Positions 11,239 through 28,607 of a stretch of DNA of 38,959 bases are shown piece after piece. The translations under genes were made by a program, and so were the position numbers. The DNA lies in NCBI GenBank assembly GCA_007118655.1, contig SKRE01000168.1, positions 1 through 38,959 of the forward strand, read 5' to 3'. The notes beneath the pieces were generated by a model. The model ran no database searches, was not told where the DNA came from, and saw only the letters and a list, made by a program, of their open reading frames with translations. Numbering within the stretch: the first letter of the stretch is position 1; every line of letters starts with the position of its first letter. The DNA is from Clostridiales bacterium (GTDB taxonomy: Bacteria; Bacillota; Clostridia; Peptostreptococcales; T1SED10-28).

Positions 11239-12072
11239 ATGAAATCCTTTGAATATTTCAAAGTGAAAACCGTAGCAGAAGCAATCAGCCGATTAAGAGA
11301 TAATCCCGACGGCAGTCATATTCTAAACGGAGGGACGGATTTAATTATCCGTATGAAAGAAAACCACCTTCATCCGGATCGGGTTATAGATATTCGTGGA
11401 ATTGAAGGCTTTTCAGATATCAATTTTTCCGAAAAAGAAGGTCTGTTTATTGGGGCCTGTGTTACTTTAGGCGAGATGGCACATCATAAAAGTGTGGTGG
11501 AGCATTACTCGTTGCTGGCCGATGCAGCTGAAATGGTAGGTTCGGGACAAATTCGAAATGCAGCAACTATGACTGGGAATTTATGCAATGCATCCCCCTT
11601 AGCGGACACGGCAACCCCGGCTTTAGTTTTAAACGCCGTGGTGATTGTAGAGGGCTTAACCGGAGAAAAAGAAATTCCAGTAAATGAATTTTTCAAGGGG
11701 GTTCGCCGGACGTCTTTAGAGAAAACCGATGTGGTAAAAGGAATACGAATACCCTACGAAGCAAATTTACAAGGAAGTTTTCACAAGGCATCCAGAAGAA
11801 AAGACGTGGACCTTTCTACAGTTTGTGCCAGCGGAGTAAAAATTGGAGACGAATACCGATTGGCCTTAGGTGCGGTAGCACCGACTCCGATTCGTTTGCC
11901 CCAGGTTGAAAAATTTCTGAGGGGAAAAGAAATCAATCAGAATACGATTAAGCAAGCCCTGGATTTGATCGATGAAGAGATTTCTCCAATCGATGATGTG
12001 CGCAGTACAAAAGAATTCAGAACCCATCTTGCGAAGGTTTTAGTGCAGCGATGTCTTGAGCAAATGGTCTAA
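11239..12072 (+). CDS. Xanthine dehydrogenase family FAD-binding subunit (copy 1)
   Basis: LNGGTDLIIRMKENH, GSGQIRNAATMTGNLCNASPLADT typical of CoxM/XdhB; RBS ggaggtg. Confidence 0.93.
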   Translation: MKSFEYFKVKTVAEAISRLRDNPDGSHILNGGTDLIIRMKENHLHPDRVIDIRGIEGFSDINFSEKEGLFIGACVTLGEMAHHKSVVEHYSLLADAAEMVGSGQIRNAATMTGNLCNASPLADTATPALVLNAVVIVEGLTGEKEIPVNEFFKGVRRTSLEKTDVVKGIRIPYEANLQGSFHKASRRKDVDLSTVCASGVKIGDEYRLALGAVAPTPIRLPQVEKFLRGKEINQNTIKQALDLIDEEISPIDDVRSTKEFRTHLAKVLVQRCLEQMV

Positions 12073-12087
12073 GCGGAGGTGTTGAAG

Positions 12088-12549
12088 ATGAAAATTACAT
12101 TCACATTAAATATGGACGTTATAGAACATGAAGTGGAACCGAATATAACGCTGCTGAAAATGCTGCGGGAGGACTTTGATCTTACGGGCGCAAAGGAAGG
12201 TTGCGGAGGGGGAGAGTGCGGTGCATGCACCATTCTCCTGAACGGCAAACCCGTAGTATCCTGCCTGATGCTGGCGGTACAGGCCGATGGTCAGGAAATC
12301 ATCACCATCGAAGGCTTGGCTCGGGGAGAAGTACTGGATGAACTTCAAAAGACTTTTATTTCCACCGGCGCGCTTCAGTGCGGGTATTGTACTCCGGGGA
12401 TGATTATGACCGCAAAAGGATTGTTGGCGGAGAATCCGGATCCCACACGGGAAGAGATTAAAACCGCATTAAGCGGAAACTTATGCCGTTGCACCGGTTA
12501 TAAAAGAATCATTGAAGCGGTTGAATCGGCAGCAAAAAGCAACGGATAA
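12088..12549 (+). CDS. Xanthine dehydrogenase family [2Fe-2S] subunit (copy 1)
   Basis: CGGGECGACTILLNGKPVVSC and CGYCTPGMIM...GNLCRCTGYK; RBS gcggaggt favours ATG 12088 over 12079. Confidence 0.95.
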   Translation: MKITFTLNMDVIEHEVEPNITLLKMLREDFDLTGAKEGCGGGECGACTILLNGKPVVSCLMLAVQADGQEIITIEGLARGEVLDELQKTFISTGALQCGYCTPGMIMTAKGLLAENPDPTREEIKTALSGNLCRCTGYKRIIEAVESAAKSNG

Positions 12550-12563
12550 GGGAGGGATGCGAA

Positions 12564-14879
12564 ATGAAATATGTGGGAAAAAGTATTGTACGGGTTGACG
12601 GAGTAAAGAAGGTCACAGGAGATTTGAAATTTGTAGATGATATAAAACTCCCTAAAATGCTCTATGCCGGGGTGAAAAGAAGTCCGCATGCCCATGCAAA
12701 AATCCTAAAAATCAACACAATCTTAGCGGAGCGCCATCCCGGAGTACGGGCAGTGGTTACGGGAAAAGACTTTCCCAAAAGAGCCGGTCTTTATTTAGCG
12801 GATAAAACCTTTTTTGCAGTGGACAAGGTACGATTTGCCGGAGAGGCAGTGGCGGCAGTGGCGGCGGATACAGTGGAAATTGCGAAGGAAGCGGCGGAAC
12901 TGATTGAGGTGGAGTATGAAGTACTGAAGTCAATCCATAATGCGAAAGAGGCAATGAAGAAGGATGCACCGATCATTCACCCGGCGTTGGGGGATTATAA
13001 AGTGGTTCCTATTTTCAAAACAATTCCCGGAACCAACATCAGCGAGCATTTCAAACTGAGAAAAGGGAATGTGGAGGCAGCTTTTGAAAAAGCATATAAA
13101 ATTTTCGAAAAAGATTTTTACGTTCCCCATATCCAGCACACACCCATCGAAAACCATGTTGCCATTGCACAATTTGATCGGGAAAAGAATTTGACGGTAT
13201 GGGCGAGTTGTCAATCTCCCTATGCGGTTCGTGCGGCGTTATCCGATGCATTTGACGTTCCCCTGCATAAACTGCGAGTAATTTCTCCTGCGGTAGGAGG
13301 TGGTTTTGGTGCGAAGGCAGGAACGACCTTGGAAGGGATTATCATCCCCCTTGCTATGAAAGTGGGGAATCGTCCGATTAAACTCACTTATAGCCGGGAG
13401 GATGAATTTGTCAGCTCCTATGTTCGACAAGCCCTTCACTCAAAATTTAAAACCGCTGTGGATAAAAACGGGAAGCTTCTTGCAGTACAAAACGAATTTA
13501 TTTGGGATGGAGGAGCCTTCACAGAGTATGGGGTAAACATAGCAAAGTCCGCAGGATTTGCCGCTGTCGGTCCTTATGATGTGGAAAATATCCATTGTGA
13601 TTCCTATGCGGTGTATACCAACAATCCTGTGGGGGGACCATACCGGGGATTCGGTATGGCGGAAATCCACTTCGGGATTGAACAGAATATGGATCATATC
13701 GCCAGAGAAATGGGAATGGATCCTATAGAACTTCGAAAAATCAACGCGCAAAAACCTGGGGGGACCACCGCAACCGGTGCGAAAGTTGATGCGGCCTGCG
13801 GATTAGAGGAATGTTTGGACTCCGTTGTGAATGAAATCGATTATCACACCCCTTCGGAACAACCGGCGGATCCTAATAAGGTTCGTGCCAAGGGAGTTGC
13901 CTGTGGAATGAAAGCCCCTTCTATGCCCAATAATGCGGGGTCTTCCGCTGTGATCAGACTCAACGAAGACGGATCCGCCTTTCTTTCCGTAAGTGCTCAA
14001 GATTTAGGTCAGGGGTCGGATACCGCTCTGACTCAAATCGCCGCGGAAGGGCTACAAATTCCTGTAGAGAAAATCACCATCAAAACAGGAGACACAGACC
14101 ATACTCCTTATGAGTGGCAAACCGTTGCAAGTCGAATCACTTATTCTACGGGAAATGCCATTGTCAAGGCTTGTGATGATATAAAAAGTCAGTTGGTAAA
14201 CTTAGCTTCTCAAAAACTGGATGTTTTGGAAGAGGAACTTATTTTGGATGATGAACATGTAGTTTGGGAAAAAGATCCCTCCAAAAGAGTGCCTATTAAA
14301 AGCTTGGCTTTAGGGCTTCAATTGGCCGACGGTTCCGGAATTCACGGACCGATTATTGGGCGGGGAACCTTTGTGCCTGAAGGGGTTTTAAATTTCGATT
14401 CTGAAACCGGATTATCGGAGAAACCGGTGGTGTTCTGGACTTACGGAGCCTACGGCGTGGAGATAGAAGTGGACAAGCAAACCGGGAATATCAAAGTATT
14501 AAAAGCAACAACATGCTTTGATGTGGGAAAAGCAATCAATCCGGAGCTGGTAAAAGCCCAGTGCGAAGGAGCCGTGGTACAGGGACTGGGATCAGCGATT
14601 TTCGAAGAAATTATTATGAAAGACGGCAAATTTCGAAACCCCAACTTTACGGATTACAAAATTCCAACCTCGGGAGATATGCCTGAGATGACCATTAAAA
14701 TTGCTGAAAACCCTCAATATGATGGACCCTATGGAGCCAGGGGGATGGCTGAACCGGCCATGATTCCTGCAGCCCCTTCGATTGTGAATGCATTTTACAA
14801 TGCAACAGGGATTGCGATGAACCGCCTTCCGTTAACACCTGAAAGAGTTGTTAATGCTCTAAGAGAGCATAATAAATAA
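12564..14879 (+). CDS. Xanthine dehydrogenase family molybdopterin-binding subunit (copy 1)
   Basis: GVKRSPHAHAKI, AVGGGFGAKAG, GGPYRGFGMAEIHFGIE, YGARGMAEPAMIPAAPSIVNA. Confidence 0.95.
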   Translation: MKYVGKSIVRVDGVKKVTGDLKFVDDIKLPKMLYAGVKRSPHAHAKILKINTILAERHPGVRAVVTGKDFPKRAGLYLADKTFFAVDKVRFAGEAVAAVAADTVEIAKEAAELIEVEYEVLKSIHNAKEAMKKDAPIIHPALGDYKVVPIFKTIPGTNISEHFKLRKGNVEAAFEKAYKIFEKDFYVPHIQHTPIENHVAIAQFDREKNLTVWASCQSPYAVRAALSDAFDVPLHKLRVISPAVGGGFGAKAGTTLEGIIIPLAMKVGNRPIKLTYSREDEFVSSYVRQALHSKFKTAVDKNGKLLAVQNEFIWDGGAFTEYGVNIAKSAGFAAVGPYDVENIHCDSYAVYTNNPVGGPYRGFGMAEIHFGIEQNMDHIAREMGMDPIELRKINAQKPGGTTATGAKVDAACGLEECLDSVVNEIDYHTPSEQPADPNKVRAKGVACGMKAPSMPNNAGSSAVIRLNEDGSAFLSVSAQDLGQGSDTALTQIAAEGLQIPVEKITIKTGDTDHTPYEWQTVASRITYSTGNAIVKACDDIKSQLVNLASQKLDVLEEELILDDEHVVWEKDPSKRVPIKSLALGLQLADGSGIHGPIIGRGTFVPEGVLNFDSETGLSEKPVVFWTYGAYGVEIEVDKQTGNIKVLKATTCFDVGKAINPELVKAQCEGAVVQGLGSAIFEEIIMKDGKFRNPNFTDYKIPTSGDMPEMTIKIAENPQYDGPYGARGMAEPAMIPAAPSIVNAFYNATGIAMNRLPLTPERVVNALREHNK

Positions 14880-18169: not shown

Positions 18170-19027
18170 ATGAAAATCAAATTAATGGATGAAAAACTCT
18201 ATAAATATTTAATTAATGAAAAAGAGGAATCCTGCCGAGTGCATTCCGTTTTTATCCATGCCTGCAATCTGTTTACGTCCCGAGGGCTATGGCTGACCTT
18301 GGTTTCCGAAAATCGATGGCTGCCCCCGAATGGTGTGAAATTGAATCACAACAAGGATCTTAGAGAGTGTTTCCCCCAAGGAGAGCACATTCGGTTTTCC
18401 ATAATAGACCAAAAGATAAAGCTGCTGGATCTGAAGTTGTCTACCAGTAATAAAAAGAAAAAAGAAACCCGGGAAAACAAACGGGTAAAGCTGGAATACA
18501 TGAAAACCTATCTTGCGTTGGAAGGCAAGGGGGAGGCTGTTGGAAAAGCTGTGCTGCCCGGGAATATTCAAGCATCCTTTCGATGCCTGGAGAGGGCTTT
18601 GGAAGAAAACAGCTTGGGCAAAATACAAACCGCAGCTCGAGGTCTGATCGGATTCGGAAGCGGACTGACCCCCTCGATGGATGACTATTTGACAGGAAGA
18701 ATCCTGATGTGGAAAGCTTGGATGATGCATTGCTCTGCTCCTATGGAGGAGGATTATTCCAAGGTGATTGAAGAAGCGGCCCGGGGAAGGACCACAATCC
18801 CCAGTGAATGGATGATCCGCTTTGCCGGGGAAGGCCGCTGCTCCGAAGAAATTCTTCATTTTTTACATACGTTTTTCAGGAAATCTACCGGCGCTGCATT
18901 TGATGAGGCCTTTAGGGAAGTGCTGAAAATCGGCAGTACTTCCGGGGAAGATCTGATATACGGCATGTGCAGTGAAGGCTCGCGGTTACTAAAGAGATAT
19001 GAAGGAGGAAGCAGTGAATGGGATTAA
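18170..19027 (+). CDS. allH: DUF2877 protein (YlbF/AllH-like)
   Basis: LIGFGSGLTPSMDDYLTGRILMW motif characteristic of DUF2877; overlaps fdrA-like gene start. Confidence 0.82.
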   Translation: MKIKLMDEKLYKYLINEKEESCRVHSVFIHACNLFTSRGLWLTLVSENRWLPPNGVKLNHNKDLRECFPQGEHIRFSIIDQKIKLLDLKLSTSNKKKKETRENKRVKLEYMKTYLALEGKGEAVGKAVLPGNIQASFRCLERALEENSLGKIQTAARGLIGFGSGLTPSMDDYLTGRILMWKAWMMHCSAPMEEDYSKVIEEAARGRTTIPSEWMIRFAGEGRCSEEILHFLHTFFRKSTGAAFDEAFREVLKIGSTSGEDLIYGMCSEGSRLLKRYEGGSSEWD

Positions 19028-20574
19028 AATCGTACATTAAAAAAAATGCCTACTATGATTCCGTAGTATTGATGCAGGTGACAAAGGAATTGAAAAAGTC
19101 CGAAGACATCAAGGAAGTTATTGTGGGGATGGGAACCCCCTTGAATAAGGAACTTGCAGAGAATTTAGGATTATTGACTGAAGATGTGAAAGCGACCACT
19201 CAAAATGATTTCTTCGTCAGTCTTGAGGGCGAAGACACCGTAGATATGGATCAAGTATTAACCAGAATTACCGCGTTGTTAAATAAGAAAAAAACCTCGG
19301 GGGATCAAGACTATCGTCCCGCAACCTTAAAATCAGCATTGAAAGTAATGCCCGAGGCGAATCTTGCATTGTTTTCCATTCCGGGAGAGTATGCCTATGA
19401 CGAAGTAAAAAAAGCCCTGGATGAAGGGCTCCATGTCATGCTTTTTAGTGACAACGTAACGATGGATGAAGAAAAGAAACTGAAAGATTATGCGAAGGAA
19501 AAAGGATTACTAATGATGGGTCCCGACTGCGGAACCGCTATTATCAATCATACCCCTTTGGCTTTTGCAAATGTCATAAAACCGGGAAATATCGGGATTG
19601 TGGGAGCTTCGGGAACCGGAACCCAGGAAGTATCGGTTTTGATTGACAAATTCGGCGGCGGAATTTCTCAAGTAATCGGCACGGGCGGAAGAGACCTTAA
19701 AGAACCGATCGGCGGAACCATGATGCTGATGGGCATAGATGCGTTGGAGGACGACGAGAAAACCGAAGTAATTGTGTTAATCTCCAAGCCTCCCCACGAG
19801 TCCATAGCAAAGAAGATTTTGGAACGGGTCAAAAAATGCAAAAAAACCGTAGTGGTGGATTTCATCGGAGGAGACACTAAAATGATTGAATCCTATGGTG
19901 CCCACCCCTGCATAAGCTTAGAAGATGCAGCGCAAAAGGCCGTTGCGGTAGCCAAGGGTGATACGCCGAAAGACTTTACGGGATTTACTATGGATGAAGG
20001 CGCCGTTGATGAAATGGTTGAAAAGGAAGTTCAACAGTACAGCAGCAACCAAAAATACCTACGGGGTTTATATACGGGAGGAACCTTAGCCGACGAGGCC
20101 ATGATGATATTAAGCGAAAGCATGGAAGCTCTGTATTCCAACAAACCGAAATCCCCGGAGTTTAAACTGGCGGATGTGTTTAAAAGCAGGGAAAACACCG
20201 TGGTTGATTTGGGAGAAGACGAATTTACTGTGGGAAAGCCCCACCCGATGATCGATCCCTCGGCTCGAGGGGAACGGATGAAACAGGAGGGCAGGGATGA
20301 AAATGTGGCTCTAGTGCTGATGGACATGGTGCTGGGATATGGTTCTCATCAAGATCCTGCGGGAGAAATGATTGAATCCATTAAAGAAGCGAAAGCGACC
20401 ATGGCTTCCAATGGAGGGCACCTAACTGTGGTGGCCTCGGTATGCGGCACAGAAGGGGATCCTCAGGATCTTGAAGCTACAGAACAAAAGCTAAAGGACA
20501 TAGGAGTTATACTGATGCCGTCAAATGCACAAGCGGTAAAGTTTGTTGATAAAATCATGAAGCGAATTTCCTAA
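19018..20574 (+). CDS. fdrA: FdrA-like acyl-CoA-synthetase-type protein (AllF-like)
   Basis: GIVGASGTGTQEVSVLIDKFGGGISQVIGTGGRDLKEPIGGTMMLMGIDAL, LLMMGPDCGTAIINHTPLAFANV, VLLDMVLGYG-like region. Confidence 0.9.
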   Translation: MGLKSYIKKNAYYDSVVLMQVTKELKKSEDIKEVIVGMGTPLNKELAENLGLLTEDVKATTQNDFFVSLEGEDTVDMDQVLTRITALLNKKKTSGDQDYRPATLKSALKVMPEANLALFSIPGEYAYDEVKKALDEGLHVMLFSDNVTMDEEKKLKDYAKEKGLLMMGPDCGTAIINHTPLAFANVIKPGNIGIVGASGTGTQEVSVLIDKFGGGISQVIGTGGRDLKEPIGGTMMLMGIDALEDDEKTEVIVLISKPPHESIAKKILERVKKCKKTVVVDFIGGDTKMIESYGAHPCISLEDAAQKAVAVAKGDTPKDFTGFTMDEGAVDEMVEKEVQQYSSNQKYLRGLYTGGTLADEAMMILSESMEALYSNKPKSPEFKLADVFKSRENTVVDLGEDEFTVGKPHPMIDPSARGERMKQEGRDENVALVLMDMVLGYGSHQDPAGEMIESIKEAKATMASNGGHLTVVASVCGTEGDPQDLEATEQKLKDIGVILMPSNAQAVKFVDKIMKRIS

Positions 20575-20585
20575 GGAGGATGAAT

Positions 20586-20756
20586 ATGTCTAAGATCAAT
20601 GAATTGTTTGACAGTGAACTGCGGGTTATAAATTTAGGGTTGGAATCCTTCTCGGAAGAATTAAAACTGCAAAAAAAAGAGGTTGTTCATGTGGAATGGC
20701 GGCCGGTTGCAGGGGGCAATAAAAAACTGAGAAATATTTTAAACCAACTGGGATAG
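20586..20756 (+). CDS. Small protein resembling the FdrA C-terminal segment (56 aa)
   Basis: Not in ORF track. MSKINELFDSELRVINLGLESFSEELKLQKKEVVHVEWRPVAGGNKKLRNILNQLG*; RBS aaggagga; lies between fdrA and DUF1116 genes. Confidence 0.85.
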   Translation: MSKINELFDSELRVINLGLESFSEELKLQKKEVVHVEWRPVAGGNKKLRNILNQLG

Positions 20757-20792
20757 AGTAACGCTGAAAACTACAAGAATGGAGGGAGTCAT

Positions 20793-24357: not shown

Positions 24358-24603
24358 ATGTTTTGTAAATGTTTTAGTCCCGGAAAAAAGAAAAAAATAA
24401 CGAAAAAAATTCTATTGCATTTGGAGGGAAAAGCGATTGATATTGGGGAAGTTACCGTGGAAATCTGCGGAAGTTCACATTGCAGGGAGGGTTATATCAG
24501 CCCGGAGCGATGGAATGAAATTTACGAGACTGTAAAAAAAGAAGAGATTTATTTAAGTGAAGCGGCCTTAAGCCGTATCCTGTTTTCAAATTTTAGAGAT
24601 TGA
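24358..24603 (+). CDS. Small protein of unknown function (81 aa)
   Basis: MFCKCFSPGKKKKITKKILLHLEGKAIDIGEVTVEICGSSHCREGYISPERWNEIYETVKKEEIYLSEAALSRILFSNFRD; aggcgg RBS-like; stands alone between two terminator/promoter regions. Confidence 0.5.
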   Translation: MFCKCFSPGKKKKITKKILLHLEGKAIDIGEVTVEICGSSHCREGYISPERWNEIYETVKKEEIYLSEAALSRILFSNFRD

Positions 24604-24828: not shown

Positions 24829-25689
24829 TTGGCTATGTTAAGTAAGTTTGATTACGTAAAACCGAAAACAGTGGAAGAAGCCGTTGCTTTCCTGGAAAAT
24901 AATCCGGGTACCAGGGTGTTAGCCGGAGGAACGGATTTGATCGTTCTTCTGCGCCGCAATCTGTTGATCACCGATCATATTTTGGATATTAAAGGAATTG
25001 AAGGTCTCCATCGTTTGGACTATAAGGAGGGGAAAGGTCTTTATATCGGAGCGGCGGTCCTGGTCAATGAGATTTCTGAAGCTCCTATGATTCAGGATAA
25101 GTACCGCGCATTATCTCAGGCCGCGGGCAGCCTTGCCTCCCATCAGCTAAGAAATCGGGCGACCTTAGTCGGCAATATTTGCAATGCTTCTCCCGGAGCG
25201 GATCTTTCCACTCCGCTTCTGGTCTATAATGCCGTGGTTCACATTGAAGGACCGGAAGGGAAAAGAGAACTTGGCATTGAGGACTTTTTCACCGGGGTCA
25301 AAAAAACCGCTCTGAAAAAGGGAGAGATCGTAACGGGAGTATCATTACCCGATGTACAGGAAGGGGACAGCAGTTACTATAAAAAACAAGCCCGTGTGAA
25401 AGGTCATGACCTTGCCACCGTGGGTATTTCCATAAGAAGAACCTCGGAGCAGGAAACCCTGATGGGGATGGCAGCAATCGCTCCTACACCGATCCGACTT
25501 CGGGAATTAGAAAAGAAGTTGAAAAATCGGGATTTCAATGAAGAAACCGCTAACTGGCTGAAAGAAGAAATAAAGAATCATGTGAAGCCCATCTCCGATG
25601 TCAGGGCCTCGTTGGAATATCGTTTTCTTGTGTCCGGCGCCTTGGCAAAAAAGATCATGATGACATTGATGGAAGAGGGGGTTAAGTAA
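24829..25689 (+). CDS. Xanthine dehydrogenase family FAD-binding subunit (copy 2)
   Basis: VLAGGTDLIVLLRRNLL, SHQLRNRATLVGNICNASPGADLSTPLLVYNA; RBS aaggagg. Confidence 0.94.
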   Translation: MAMLSKFDYVKPKTVEEAVAFLENNPGTRVLAGGTDLIVLLRRNLLITDHILDIKGIEGLHRLDYKEGKGLYIGAAVLVNEISEAPMIQDKYRALSQAAGSLASHQLRNRATLVGNICNASPGADLSTPLLVYNAVVHIEGPEGKRELGIEDFFTGVKKTALKKGEIVTGVSLPDVQEGDSSYYKKQARVKGHDLATVGISIRRTSEQETLMGMAAIAPTPIRLRELEKKLKNRDFNEETANWLKEEIKNHVKPISDVRASLEYRFLVSGALAKKIMMTLMEEGVK

Positions 25690-26226
25690 ATGTGCAGCAC
25701 AGCGAAGAACAAAGGAAATTGTGTGGAATATACGGATTCCGGTTTGCCTAAAATAGCCATTGGATTTGAAGTGAACGGGGATCGTTTTGAAAAGCATGTA
25801 GATCCTACCATGACCTTGCTACAGCTTCTTCATAATGAGCTGAAACTCTTTGGTACCAAGGAAGGGTGCGGCGAAGGAGAATGTGGAGCCTGTTCCGTTA
25901 TTCTAAACGGGAAAGCGGTGAACTCCTGTCTGGTATTGGCTGCGGAAGCGGACGATGCAACGATCCTTACGGTGGAAGGCTTAGGTCAGGGGAATGAACT
26001 TTCTATTCTGCAACAGGAATTTATTAAATACGACGCCCTGCAATGCGGATTTTGTACTCCGGGGATGCTAATGTCCGCCCGTTCCCTCTTAGATCGACAG
26101 CCGAATCCCTCCGACGAAGAAATAAAAGAGGCCATCGCTGGGAATTTCTGCCGTTGTACAGGCTATGTTCCTATTATTGAGGCGATTCGTTCGGCAGCAA
26201 CACGGGAAAGGGAGGCGTTGATATAA
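25690..26226 (+). CDS. Xanthine dehydrogenase family [2Fe-2S] subunit (copy 2)
   Basis: CGEGECGACSVILNGKAVNSC and CGFCTPGMLMSARSLL...GNFCRCTGYVP. Confidence 0.95.
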   Translation: MCSTAKNKGNCVEYTDSGLPKIAIGFEVNGDRFEKHVDPTMTLLQLLHNELKLFGTKEGCGEGECGACSVILNGKAVNSCLVLAAEADDATILTVEGLGQGNELSILQQEFIKYDALQCGFCTPGMLMSARSLLDRQPNPSDEEIKEAIAGNFCRCTGYVPIIEAIRSAATREREALI

Positions 26227-28607
26227 TGAGTGAAAAAATACTTGAACATATAGGGAAAGGCTATGACCGAAAGGAAGCCCAGGAAAAAGTAACGGGCCAG
26301 GCGGTATATGTACATGATATGGAAGTGCCCGGTATGCTTTATGCTAAAGTGCTGCTTTCACCTTTCGCCCATGCGGAGATTGTATCCATCGATTATTCCG
26401 AAGCTGAAAAGCTTAAAGGGGTAAAGGCGGTTGTAACAGGTAAGGAAGCATGTCAGCGGGTGGGTCTCTACATGGTGGATAAAAACATCATGGCGGGAAA
26501 AAAGGTGCGCTACCAGGGGGAAATTGTGTCTGCGGTTGTGGCGGAAAGTGAAGCCGTTGCAGAAGAAGCGGTTACCCTGATTAAGGTGGAGTATAAAGAG
26601 CTGCCGATTGTTCATAACCTGGATGAAGCCCTGGAGGCAAAAGTCCTGGTGCATGAAAATCTGCACACCTATGAGCATATGAAAGGGGTCTTTTTCCCTA
26701 AAAAAGACAGCAATATTGCCAGCTGGAACCGGACGAAAAAGGGAGACATCAAGAAGGGTTTTGAGGAAGCGGACTTTATCTTTGAAGATGAATTCAGTGT
26801 ACCCGCCGTGGCCCATGTTCCCATGGAAACCCATGTGACCATTGCCCAGGCCGATCCTTACTCCGATAAGATCAAGATCTGGTCTTCCGCCCAATCACCC
26901 TTTGCGGTACGCCAGTTATTGGCGAAATCCATGGGTATTGCAAAAGGGAATGTTAATGTTATCGTACCCTATGTGGGGGGAGGTTTTGGAGGAAAAGCCG
27001 GCGTCCATCTTGAGCCTTTAGTCAGTGTGTTATCCAAAGCTGTTCATGGGCTTCCTGTGAAGCTGAAGATGACCAGGGAAGAGGAGTTTAACATTCTTCC
27101 TACCCGGGCAGGCATGCGGGCTAGATTTAAAACGGGAATGACAAAAGAGGGAAAAATCACAGCCATGGAGGTTTACCATGACTGGGATAGCGGGGCCTAT
27201 GCGGATTACGGAGTAAACGTCGGGAAAACCGCTGTTTATTCTGGAGCCGGACCCTATGCCGTTCCCAATATCGAGCTTCATTCACGAACCATTTATACCA
27301 ACAAGGTATTCAGTACGGCCTATCGTGGATTCGGGCACTTGGAAACCCACTGGGCGGTTGAGCGGCACATGGATATCATGGCCCAAAAGTTGAACATCGA
27401 TCCCTATGAATTGCGGATGAAAAACCTGCTTCGTCCCGGAGATACCACCATCAGCGGCGAGCTGATCTATCCCACGACGGGAGATCCGGTGGCCTGCCTG
27501 AATGCTGTAAAAAATGAACTAAAATGGACAGGACGGAAATCCCAGGAAGACCGGAAGCGGGAGATGGAAACCGGAAAGGTAAGAGGACAAGGGTTTGCCA
27601 TGCTTCAAAAAGCCCCGGCGATGCCCAGTTACACCTCAACATCAGCAATAATGCAAATGGATGAAGACGGACATGTTAAGGTTATGCTCGGAGCGGTGGA
27701 CTTTGGTCAGGGCGCCAACACCATCATGGCCCAGGTAGCCGCGGAAGAACTTCGGGTTCCTATGAAGGATGTGGAAGTGGTTTGGAATGTGGAAACCGAC
27801 AAACATCCCTATGACTGGAACACCGTGGCATCCAAATACACTTTTATGGGAGGCAATGCGGTTCGTAAAGCTGCTCGAAATATGGTTCAGCAGATGAAGG
27901 AAGTGGCGGGACAGGTCCTTCGCTGCCATACTGATGAACTCACCCATGGCGACGGTTATATTTACCATGTACATCAAACCCATAGACGAATATCCTACGT
28001 GAAACTATCGATGGGATATGCCTACGAAAACGGGAATGGCATTGGGGGACCCTTGATTTCCCATGGGGTCTATATGGCCAGCGGACTGAGTAATCCCGAT
28101 CCTGAAACCGGACAGGGCCGTCCCGGCTTGGTGTGGACCTTTGGTGCCCATGGAGTGGATTTGGAGGTGGATGTGGAAACCGGCGAAGTCAATATTCTTA
28201 AAATCGTATCAGCATTTGATATCGGAAAGGTGATCAATAAGAAGCTGGTGGATGGTCAGGTGTACGGGGGGATCGTTCAAGGGGTGGGTTCCGCCCTGAT
28301 CGAAGGATATAAGTTTGATGGAGAAGCAAAGCTTTTGAATCCCTACTTTGGCGACAATCGCATTCCCTCATCAAAGGACATCCCCGATGAGGTCAAAGCG
28401 ATTTACATCGAAGAGCCCAAAACCGCTCAAGTGGACGGACCCTATGGGGCAAGAGGCATCGGAGAACATCCGATGATTTCCGTGCCATCGGCCATCGGCA
28501 ATGCCCTGTATGAGGCCTTGGAAATTAACTTCCATCGACTCCCCCTTACGCCGGAAAACGTGGCCTTAGCCATTGATAAGCATTACAATAATGATGAATC
28601 GAAATAG
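26226..28607 (+). CDS. Xanthine dehydrogenase family molybdopterin-binding subunit (copy 2)
   Basis: YVGGGFGGKAGVHLEP, TAYRGFGHLETHWAVERHMD, YGARGIGEHPMISVPSAIGNALYEA. Confidence 0.95.
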   Translation: MSEKILEHIGKGYDRKEAQEKVTGQAVYVHDMEVPGMLYAKVLLSPFAHAEIVSIDYSEAEKLKGVKAVVTGKEACQRVGLYMVDKNIMAGKKVRYQGEIVSAVVAESEAVAEEAVTLIKVEYKELPIVHNLDEALEAKVLVHENLHTYEHMKGVFFPKKDSNIASWNRTKKGDIKKGFEEADFIFEDEFSVPAVAHVPMETHVTIAQADPYSDKIKIWSSAQSPFAVRQLLAKSMGIAKGNVNVIVPYVGGGFGGKAGVHLEPLVSVLSKAVHGLPVKLKMTREEEFNILPTRAGMRARFKTGMTKEGKITAMEVYHDWDSGAYADYGVNVGKTAVYSGAGPYAVPNIELHSRTIYTNKVFSTAYRGFGHLETHWAVERHMDIMAQKLNIDPYELRMKNLLRPGDTTISGELIYPTTGDPVACLNAVKNELKWTGRKSQEDRKREMETGKVRGQGFAMLQKAPAMPSYTSTSAIMQMDEDGHVKVMLGAVDFGQGANTIMAQVAAEELRVPMKDVEVVWNVETDKHPYDWNTVASKYTFMGGNAVRKAARNMVQQMKEVAGQVLRCHTDELTHGDGYIYHVHQTHRRISYVKLSMGYAYENGNGIGGPLISHGVYMASGLSNPDPETGQGRPGLVWTFGAHGVDLEVDVETGEVNILKIVSAFDIGKVINKKLVDGQVYGGIVQGVGSALIEGYKFDGEAKLLNPYFGDNRIPSSKDIPDEVKAIYIEEPKTAQVDGPYGARGIGEHPMISVPSAIGNALYEALEINFHRLPLTPENVALAIDKHYNNDESK

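Follow-up and report, generated by a model that had tools for sequence, protein, structure and literature searches.

The locus and its small open reading frame

The window, i.e., the whole stretch of 38,959 nucleotides analyzed here, belongs to a fragmented assembly with a completeness of approximately 64%. It contains a tight operon with the gene order AllH-FdrA-segment-AllG, in which the segment is encoded by a small open reading frame (Table 1). The adjacent genes encode homologs of AllH, AllF and AllG (PF11392, NF004760 and PF06545, respectively). By homology, the locus is predicted to encode an AllFGH-type carbamoyltransferase (oxamate carbamoyltransferase family), an enzyme type of purine breakdown, with a putative substrate.

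Table 1. Coordinates of the operon genes and their ribosome-binding sites in the window.
Feature	Coordinates	Strand	Evidence and remarks
AllH (DUF2877) subunit gene	18170..19027	+	PF11392 AllH, E=2.8e-21; 10-nt overlap with fdrA start
FdrA/AllF gene, 518 aa, without C-terminal segment	19018..20574	+	NF004760, PDB 3DMY
AGGAGG ribosome-binding site	20574..20579	+	Overlaps last base of fdrA stop codon; 6 nt 5' of ATG
Segment gene (candidate connector), free-standing, 56 aa	20586..20756	+	ATG 20586, stop 20756; NF004760 and 3DMY tail matches
GGAGGG ribosome-binding site of allG	20781..20786	+	Sequence
AllG (DUF1116) gene, TTG start, no N-terminal segment	20793..22046	+	PF06545 AllG, E=7.8e-102; PDB 3CLQ, E=1.4e-136

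The operon is preceded by genes for a xanthine/uracil permease and a PucR-type regulator. A catabolic carbamate kinase, which could use carbamoyl phosphate, is encoded in the same genome on contig C17, outside the window (TIGR00746 match above cut-off). On either side of the operon lies a set of molybdopterin (xanthine dehydrogenase-like) genes for three subunits (11239-14879 and 24829-28607), and a MobA-like gene is found at 28573. Between the second of these sets and a CoA-transferase III gene lies an 81-aa open reading frame (24358-24603) with no Pfam match.

A preliminary description of this DNA had placed a small open reading frame with a good ribosome-binding site between fdrA and allG, and its coordinates proved exact. 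The encoded peptide is MSKINELFDSELRVINLGLESFSEELKLQKKEVVHVEWRPVAGGNKKLRNILNQLG. The gene is separated by an 11-nt gap from the end of fdrA, from which it differs in reading frame, and 36 nt lie between its stop codon and the TTG start of allG. A second in-frame ATG at 20580 is an unlikely start codon, since it directly abuts the Shine-Dalgarno (SD) site. The GGAGGG arrangement of allG recurs in two other loci (L002 and L057) and, slightly altered, in a third (L064). The small gene is single-copy in its own genome, and a gene of 56 residues is likely to have been missed by annotation.

Homology to the FdrA C-terminus and coding constraint

Searches with the NCBIfam FdrA model NF004760, which has 555 positions, divided its length between the two neighbouring reading frames. 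The FdrA of the window matched positions 2-494 (E=9e-155), and the small open reading frame significantly matched positions 505-554 (E=1.1e-14), i.e., the part that is absent from this FdrA. The crystal chain of E. coli FdrA (PDB 3DMY) was divided likewise: its body was matched by the FdrA of the window (E=4.5e-80) and its tail, residues 430-473, by the small open reading frame (E=5.5e-10). The sequence of this chain has 480 residues, of which 446-447 are modelled. No Pfam family was matched by the segment in a Pfam search. In an alignment of 21 sequences covering four arrangements of the segment (alignment A1), the small open reading frame carries all the invariant residues (G18, W38, P40 and G44) and also the near-invariant L7, F8, N16, F22, Q29 and L52. 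Judged by these matches, the small open reading frame is homologous to the FdrA C-terminus. The resemblance to longer FdrA proteins given in the preliminary description was borne out by the model and crystal-chain matches, as was the proposal that FdrA stops at 518 residues without this part; the alternative that the 518-residue protein is already complete does not hold, given that its match ends at position 494 of 555.

The split is conserved in related Clostridia, as it occurs in many Clostridia and other Bacillota. Among 42 free copies of the segment, 41 encode 55-59 residues, the start codon is ATG in 35, TTG in four and GTG in three, and 40 are preceded by an SD-like site, a count that is somewhat favourable because starts were chosen partly by their SD. 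Their frame offset relative to FdrA is 0 in 10 loci, 1 in 20 and 2 in 12. The small open reading frame shares 89-95% amino acid identity with close relatives, and substitutions relative to two of them fall at third codon positions in 16 of 25 and 16 of 20 cases. The corresponding NG86 dN/dS values are 0.052/0.932 and 0.024/0.769, i.e., a ratio of approximately 0.03-0.06 against same-genus or nearest relatives, comparable to those of FdrA (0.062/1.089) and AllG (0.034/1.266). The small open reading frame is under purifying selection. A chance open reading frame was rejected given the NF004760 match (E=1.1e-14), the identity among relatives, the third-position substitutions and the dN/dS values.

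An assembly error or pseudogene, in which a frameshift in the MAG FdrA cut off the C-terminus and left the small open reading frame as a remnant, would fit the incomplete, fragmented assembly and the different frame of the two genes, but can safely be dismissed, because dozens of genera keep the split with varying frame offsets, among them genomes assembled in one contig (G006, which is 100% complete, and G699), and because start codon, ribosome site and length are retained nearly everywhere at low dN/dS. Readthrough or programmed frameshifting, by which the segment would be made as part of a long FdrA like that of E. coli, is very unlikely. The segment does directly follow FdrA, and at two loci (L007 and L008) the FdrA stop codon shares the frame of the segment and no further stop intervenes. 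However, the frame offset varies among relatives, extra stops intervene at some loci (L003 and L005), and almost every free copy has an SD of its own and a start codon close to the same residue.

Four arrangements of the segment

The segment of approximately 50 residues was seen in all four possible arrangements: as the C-terminus of FdrA, as the N-terminus of AllG/DUF1116 proteins, as the middle of a triple fusion, and free. These are every way of cutting the line FdrA-segment-AllG at its two joints. A sequence search yielded 48 loci, with the segment free in seven and at the AllG N-terminus in 41. Among 107 non-redundant loci, for which FdrA, segment and AllG were all required, there were 55 segment-AllG fusions, 43 free segments, six FdrA-segment fusions and three triple fusions; this sample is enriched for relatives of the window and close sequence relatives, and the counts are not natural frequencies. 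The triple fusions are a protein of 1003 residues in E. faecalis and open frames of 1008 and 1013 residues in two further genomes (G059 and G173, respectively). The nearest fused relatives of the small open reading frame are AllG fusions, with which it shares the start MSKxNELF. The segment forms the N-terminus of AllG/DUF1116 no less often than it forms a piece of FdrA.

Different arrangements can be found within one genome: one contains free-type and FdrA-fused paralogs (G039), and another contains free and AllG-fused copies (G789). In three genomes, tandem AllG duplicates stand behind one free segment in the order FdrA-segment-AllG-AllG' (L170 2118-4651; L171 3794-6334; L178 598-3151). On a plasmid of Vibrio diabolicus, a stop codon interrupts the segment ahead of AllG between IS elements (L054 3932-5371), and the annotated start of the DUF1116 gene falls inside the segment.

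The distribution of the segment was compared with those of FdrA and AllG in two genome samples. The segment was present in 15 of 60 relatives, and AllG was present in those same 15. Across 391 genomes of the class, the segment was found in 23, AllG in 24 and FdrA in 22; all 25 FdrA copies in this sample had a segment, and no genome of the sample contained a segment without AllG. Two full AllG copies lacked a segment (G194 contig 82 and G322), neither with FdrA nearby. Counted copy by copy, the segment thus follows the FdrA-AllG pair. The additional segment-bearing genome (G139) encodes an internally shortened FdrA, which lacks its middle (model positions ~81-399) and has an intact AllH on one side and segment and AllG, both intact, on the other (L175 3424-4169); this reflects either an internal deletion or an assembly collapse. 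Orphan AllG genes without FdrA or segment were seen at L163 5956-7218 and L164 6891-8132. The latter, which is the G322 copy, neighbours genes for an ILVD-type dehydratase, an FAD protein and a short-chain dehydrogenase, and this setting suggests another function for some DUF1116 proteins.

On a concatenated FdrA and AllG tree of 83 loci, the arrangement changes at least 10 times, and at least seven times when long branches are removed. Grouping all free forms as one clade was rejected (AU p=5.6e-5), and so was grouping all AllG-fused forms (AU p=1.1e-4). By parsimony with equal costs, a free and an FdrA-fused midpoint root each require seven changes; a free root is obtained if fission is costlier than fusion, and a fused root is favoured if it is cheaper. 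At this assumed midpoint root, the free state is thus at least as likely as the FdrA-fused one, except where fission is taken to be cheaper.

These results make it quite unlikely that the segment is an FdrA C-terminus detached by recent fission that restores the FdrA fold without touching AllG. E. coli FdrA does carry the segment as its C-terminus, and in a genome with the order AllG-FdrA-segment (G361) the segment is still a separate open reading frame after FdrA even though AllG lies upstream. However, 55 of the 107 distinct loci have the segment joined to AllG and not to FdrA, free copies are widespread, and the tree gives no preference to a single recent fission. The preliminary label of a detached FdrA C-terminal segment is accordingly correct in respect of homology and the missing FdrA tail, but the segment does not belong to FdrA in particular, and its origin by one recent fission is not favoured by the tree.

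Proposed role and comparison with known systems

We propose that an AllFGH-type carbamoyltransferase here probably includes the segment as a fourth, small subunit, which would serve as a connector at the FdrA (AllF)-AllG junction. The segment would have its own ribosome site for translation directly behind fdrA and would dock, probably in a strand-helix-strand-helix fold, on the C-terminal lobe of FdrA. It may contact or position the N-terminal part of AllG, and its conserved loop W-x-P-x-(A/G)-x-G may face a shared active site. The free segment would work in trans, and the AllF C-terminus of E. coli, the AllG N-terminus of YahG and the middle of the E. faecalis triple fusion would do so in cis. 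Physical association, bridging of FdrA and AllG, a role at the active site and the substrate are matters that we infer; co-occurrence within one operon can also reflect a common function without contact. The earlier suggestion of a complex of four polypeptides stands as the natural reading, with the physical complex itself being putative.

Structure predictions weakly favour docking of the segment on FdrA. In the AlphaFold2 model of a natural segment-AllG protein (L006), the AllG body is confident, and residues 1-40 of the segment are without strands and of low to moderate confidence. In a linked chain obtained by translating across the FdrA stop codon at another locus (L011), the segment is predicted with moderate confidence as strand-helix-strand-helix (pLDDT ~48-78, and 88 at its end, with a shallow alignment as input); this model has a pTM of 0.50 and does not predict the relative placement of FdrA and AllG. 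Foldseek matched 3CLQ (the AllG body) and 3DMY, with nothing decisive on the segment.

It is rather unlikely that the segment instead serves FdrA or AllG as a small regulator or chaperone-like assembly protein and stays outside the mature enzyme. Its small size, its separate translation within the same operon and its poor order in the segment-AllG model without FdrA would be consistent with such a role. In contrast, the segment is repeatedly fused to FdrA, AllG or both, and being covalently joined it therefore stays with the enzyme in those organisms. A further-reaching view, which we consider possible though short of probable, is that the segment is an ancestral independent subunit whose W-x-P...G loop makes the active site complete where FdrA and AllG meet, and which was fused several times to either neighbour or both. 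If this were true, the textbook three-subunit enzyme would be a four-component one, its smallest part having been overlooked as model organisms carry it fused. For the connector subunit that we favour, the occurrence of the segment free, on either partner or on both marks the FdrA-AllG junction and provides a pointer for structure work.

To our knowledge, oxamic transcarbamylase is unrelated to other transcarbamylases and has no solved subunit arrangement. In the parts of the literature consulted, AllF, AllG and AllH of E. coli constitute this enzyme, which converts oxalurate to carbamoyl phosphate and oxamate and was assigned to the three genes only in 2024 (Kim and Kim, 2024; PMC11326118). 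The activity (carbamoyl phosphate + oxamate <-> oxalurate + Pi) is shown there for the E. coli proteins only, and the enzyme is treated as three subunits in the papers found (PMC11326118). The searched parts of these papers make no mention of the segment as a unit or of its free form. The free-standing segment gene is present in many Clostridia and relatives. Cloning only the three large genes from Clostridia for reconstitution would omit a conserved component.

The E. coli AllFGH system resembles the locus of the window in that the FdrA body and segment of AllF are homologous to the FdrA and small open reading frame, respectively, and in that AllG and AllH homologs are encoded in the same operon. 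However, the segment is the covalent C-terminus of a 555-residue protein in E. coli and a separate 56-residue protein in the window, and the gene order is AllF-AllG-AllH-AllK rather than AllH-FdrA-segment-AllG. In the YahEFG system of E. coli and the segment-AllG (DUF1116) proteins of bacilli, the segment likewise directly precedes AllG and has a similar start, and the YahEFG-type order DUF2877-FdrA-segment-AllG matches that of the window. The segment forms the N-terminus of AllG in the YahG type, whereas in the window segment and AllG are set apart by a stop codon and by a further ribosome site. The triple fusion of E. faecalis (V2I04_RS12230, 1003 residues) has the three elements lined up in the same order, but as one polypeptide compared to three in the window.
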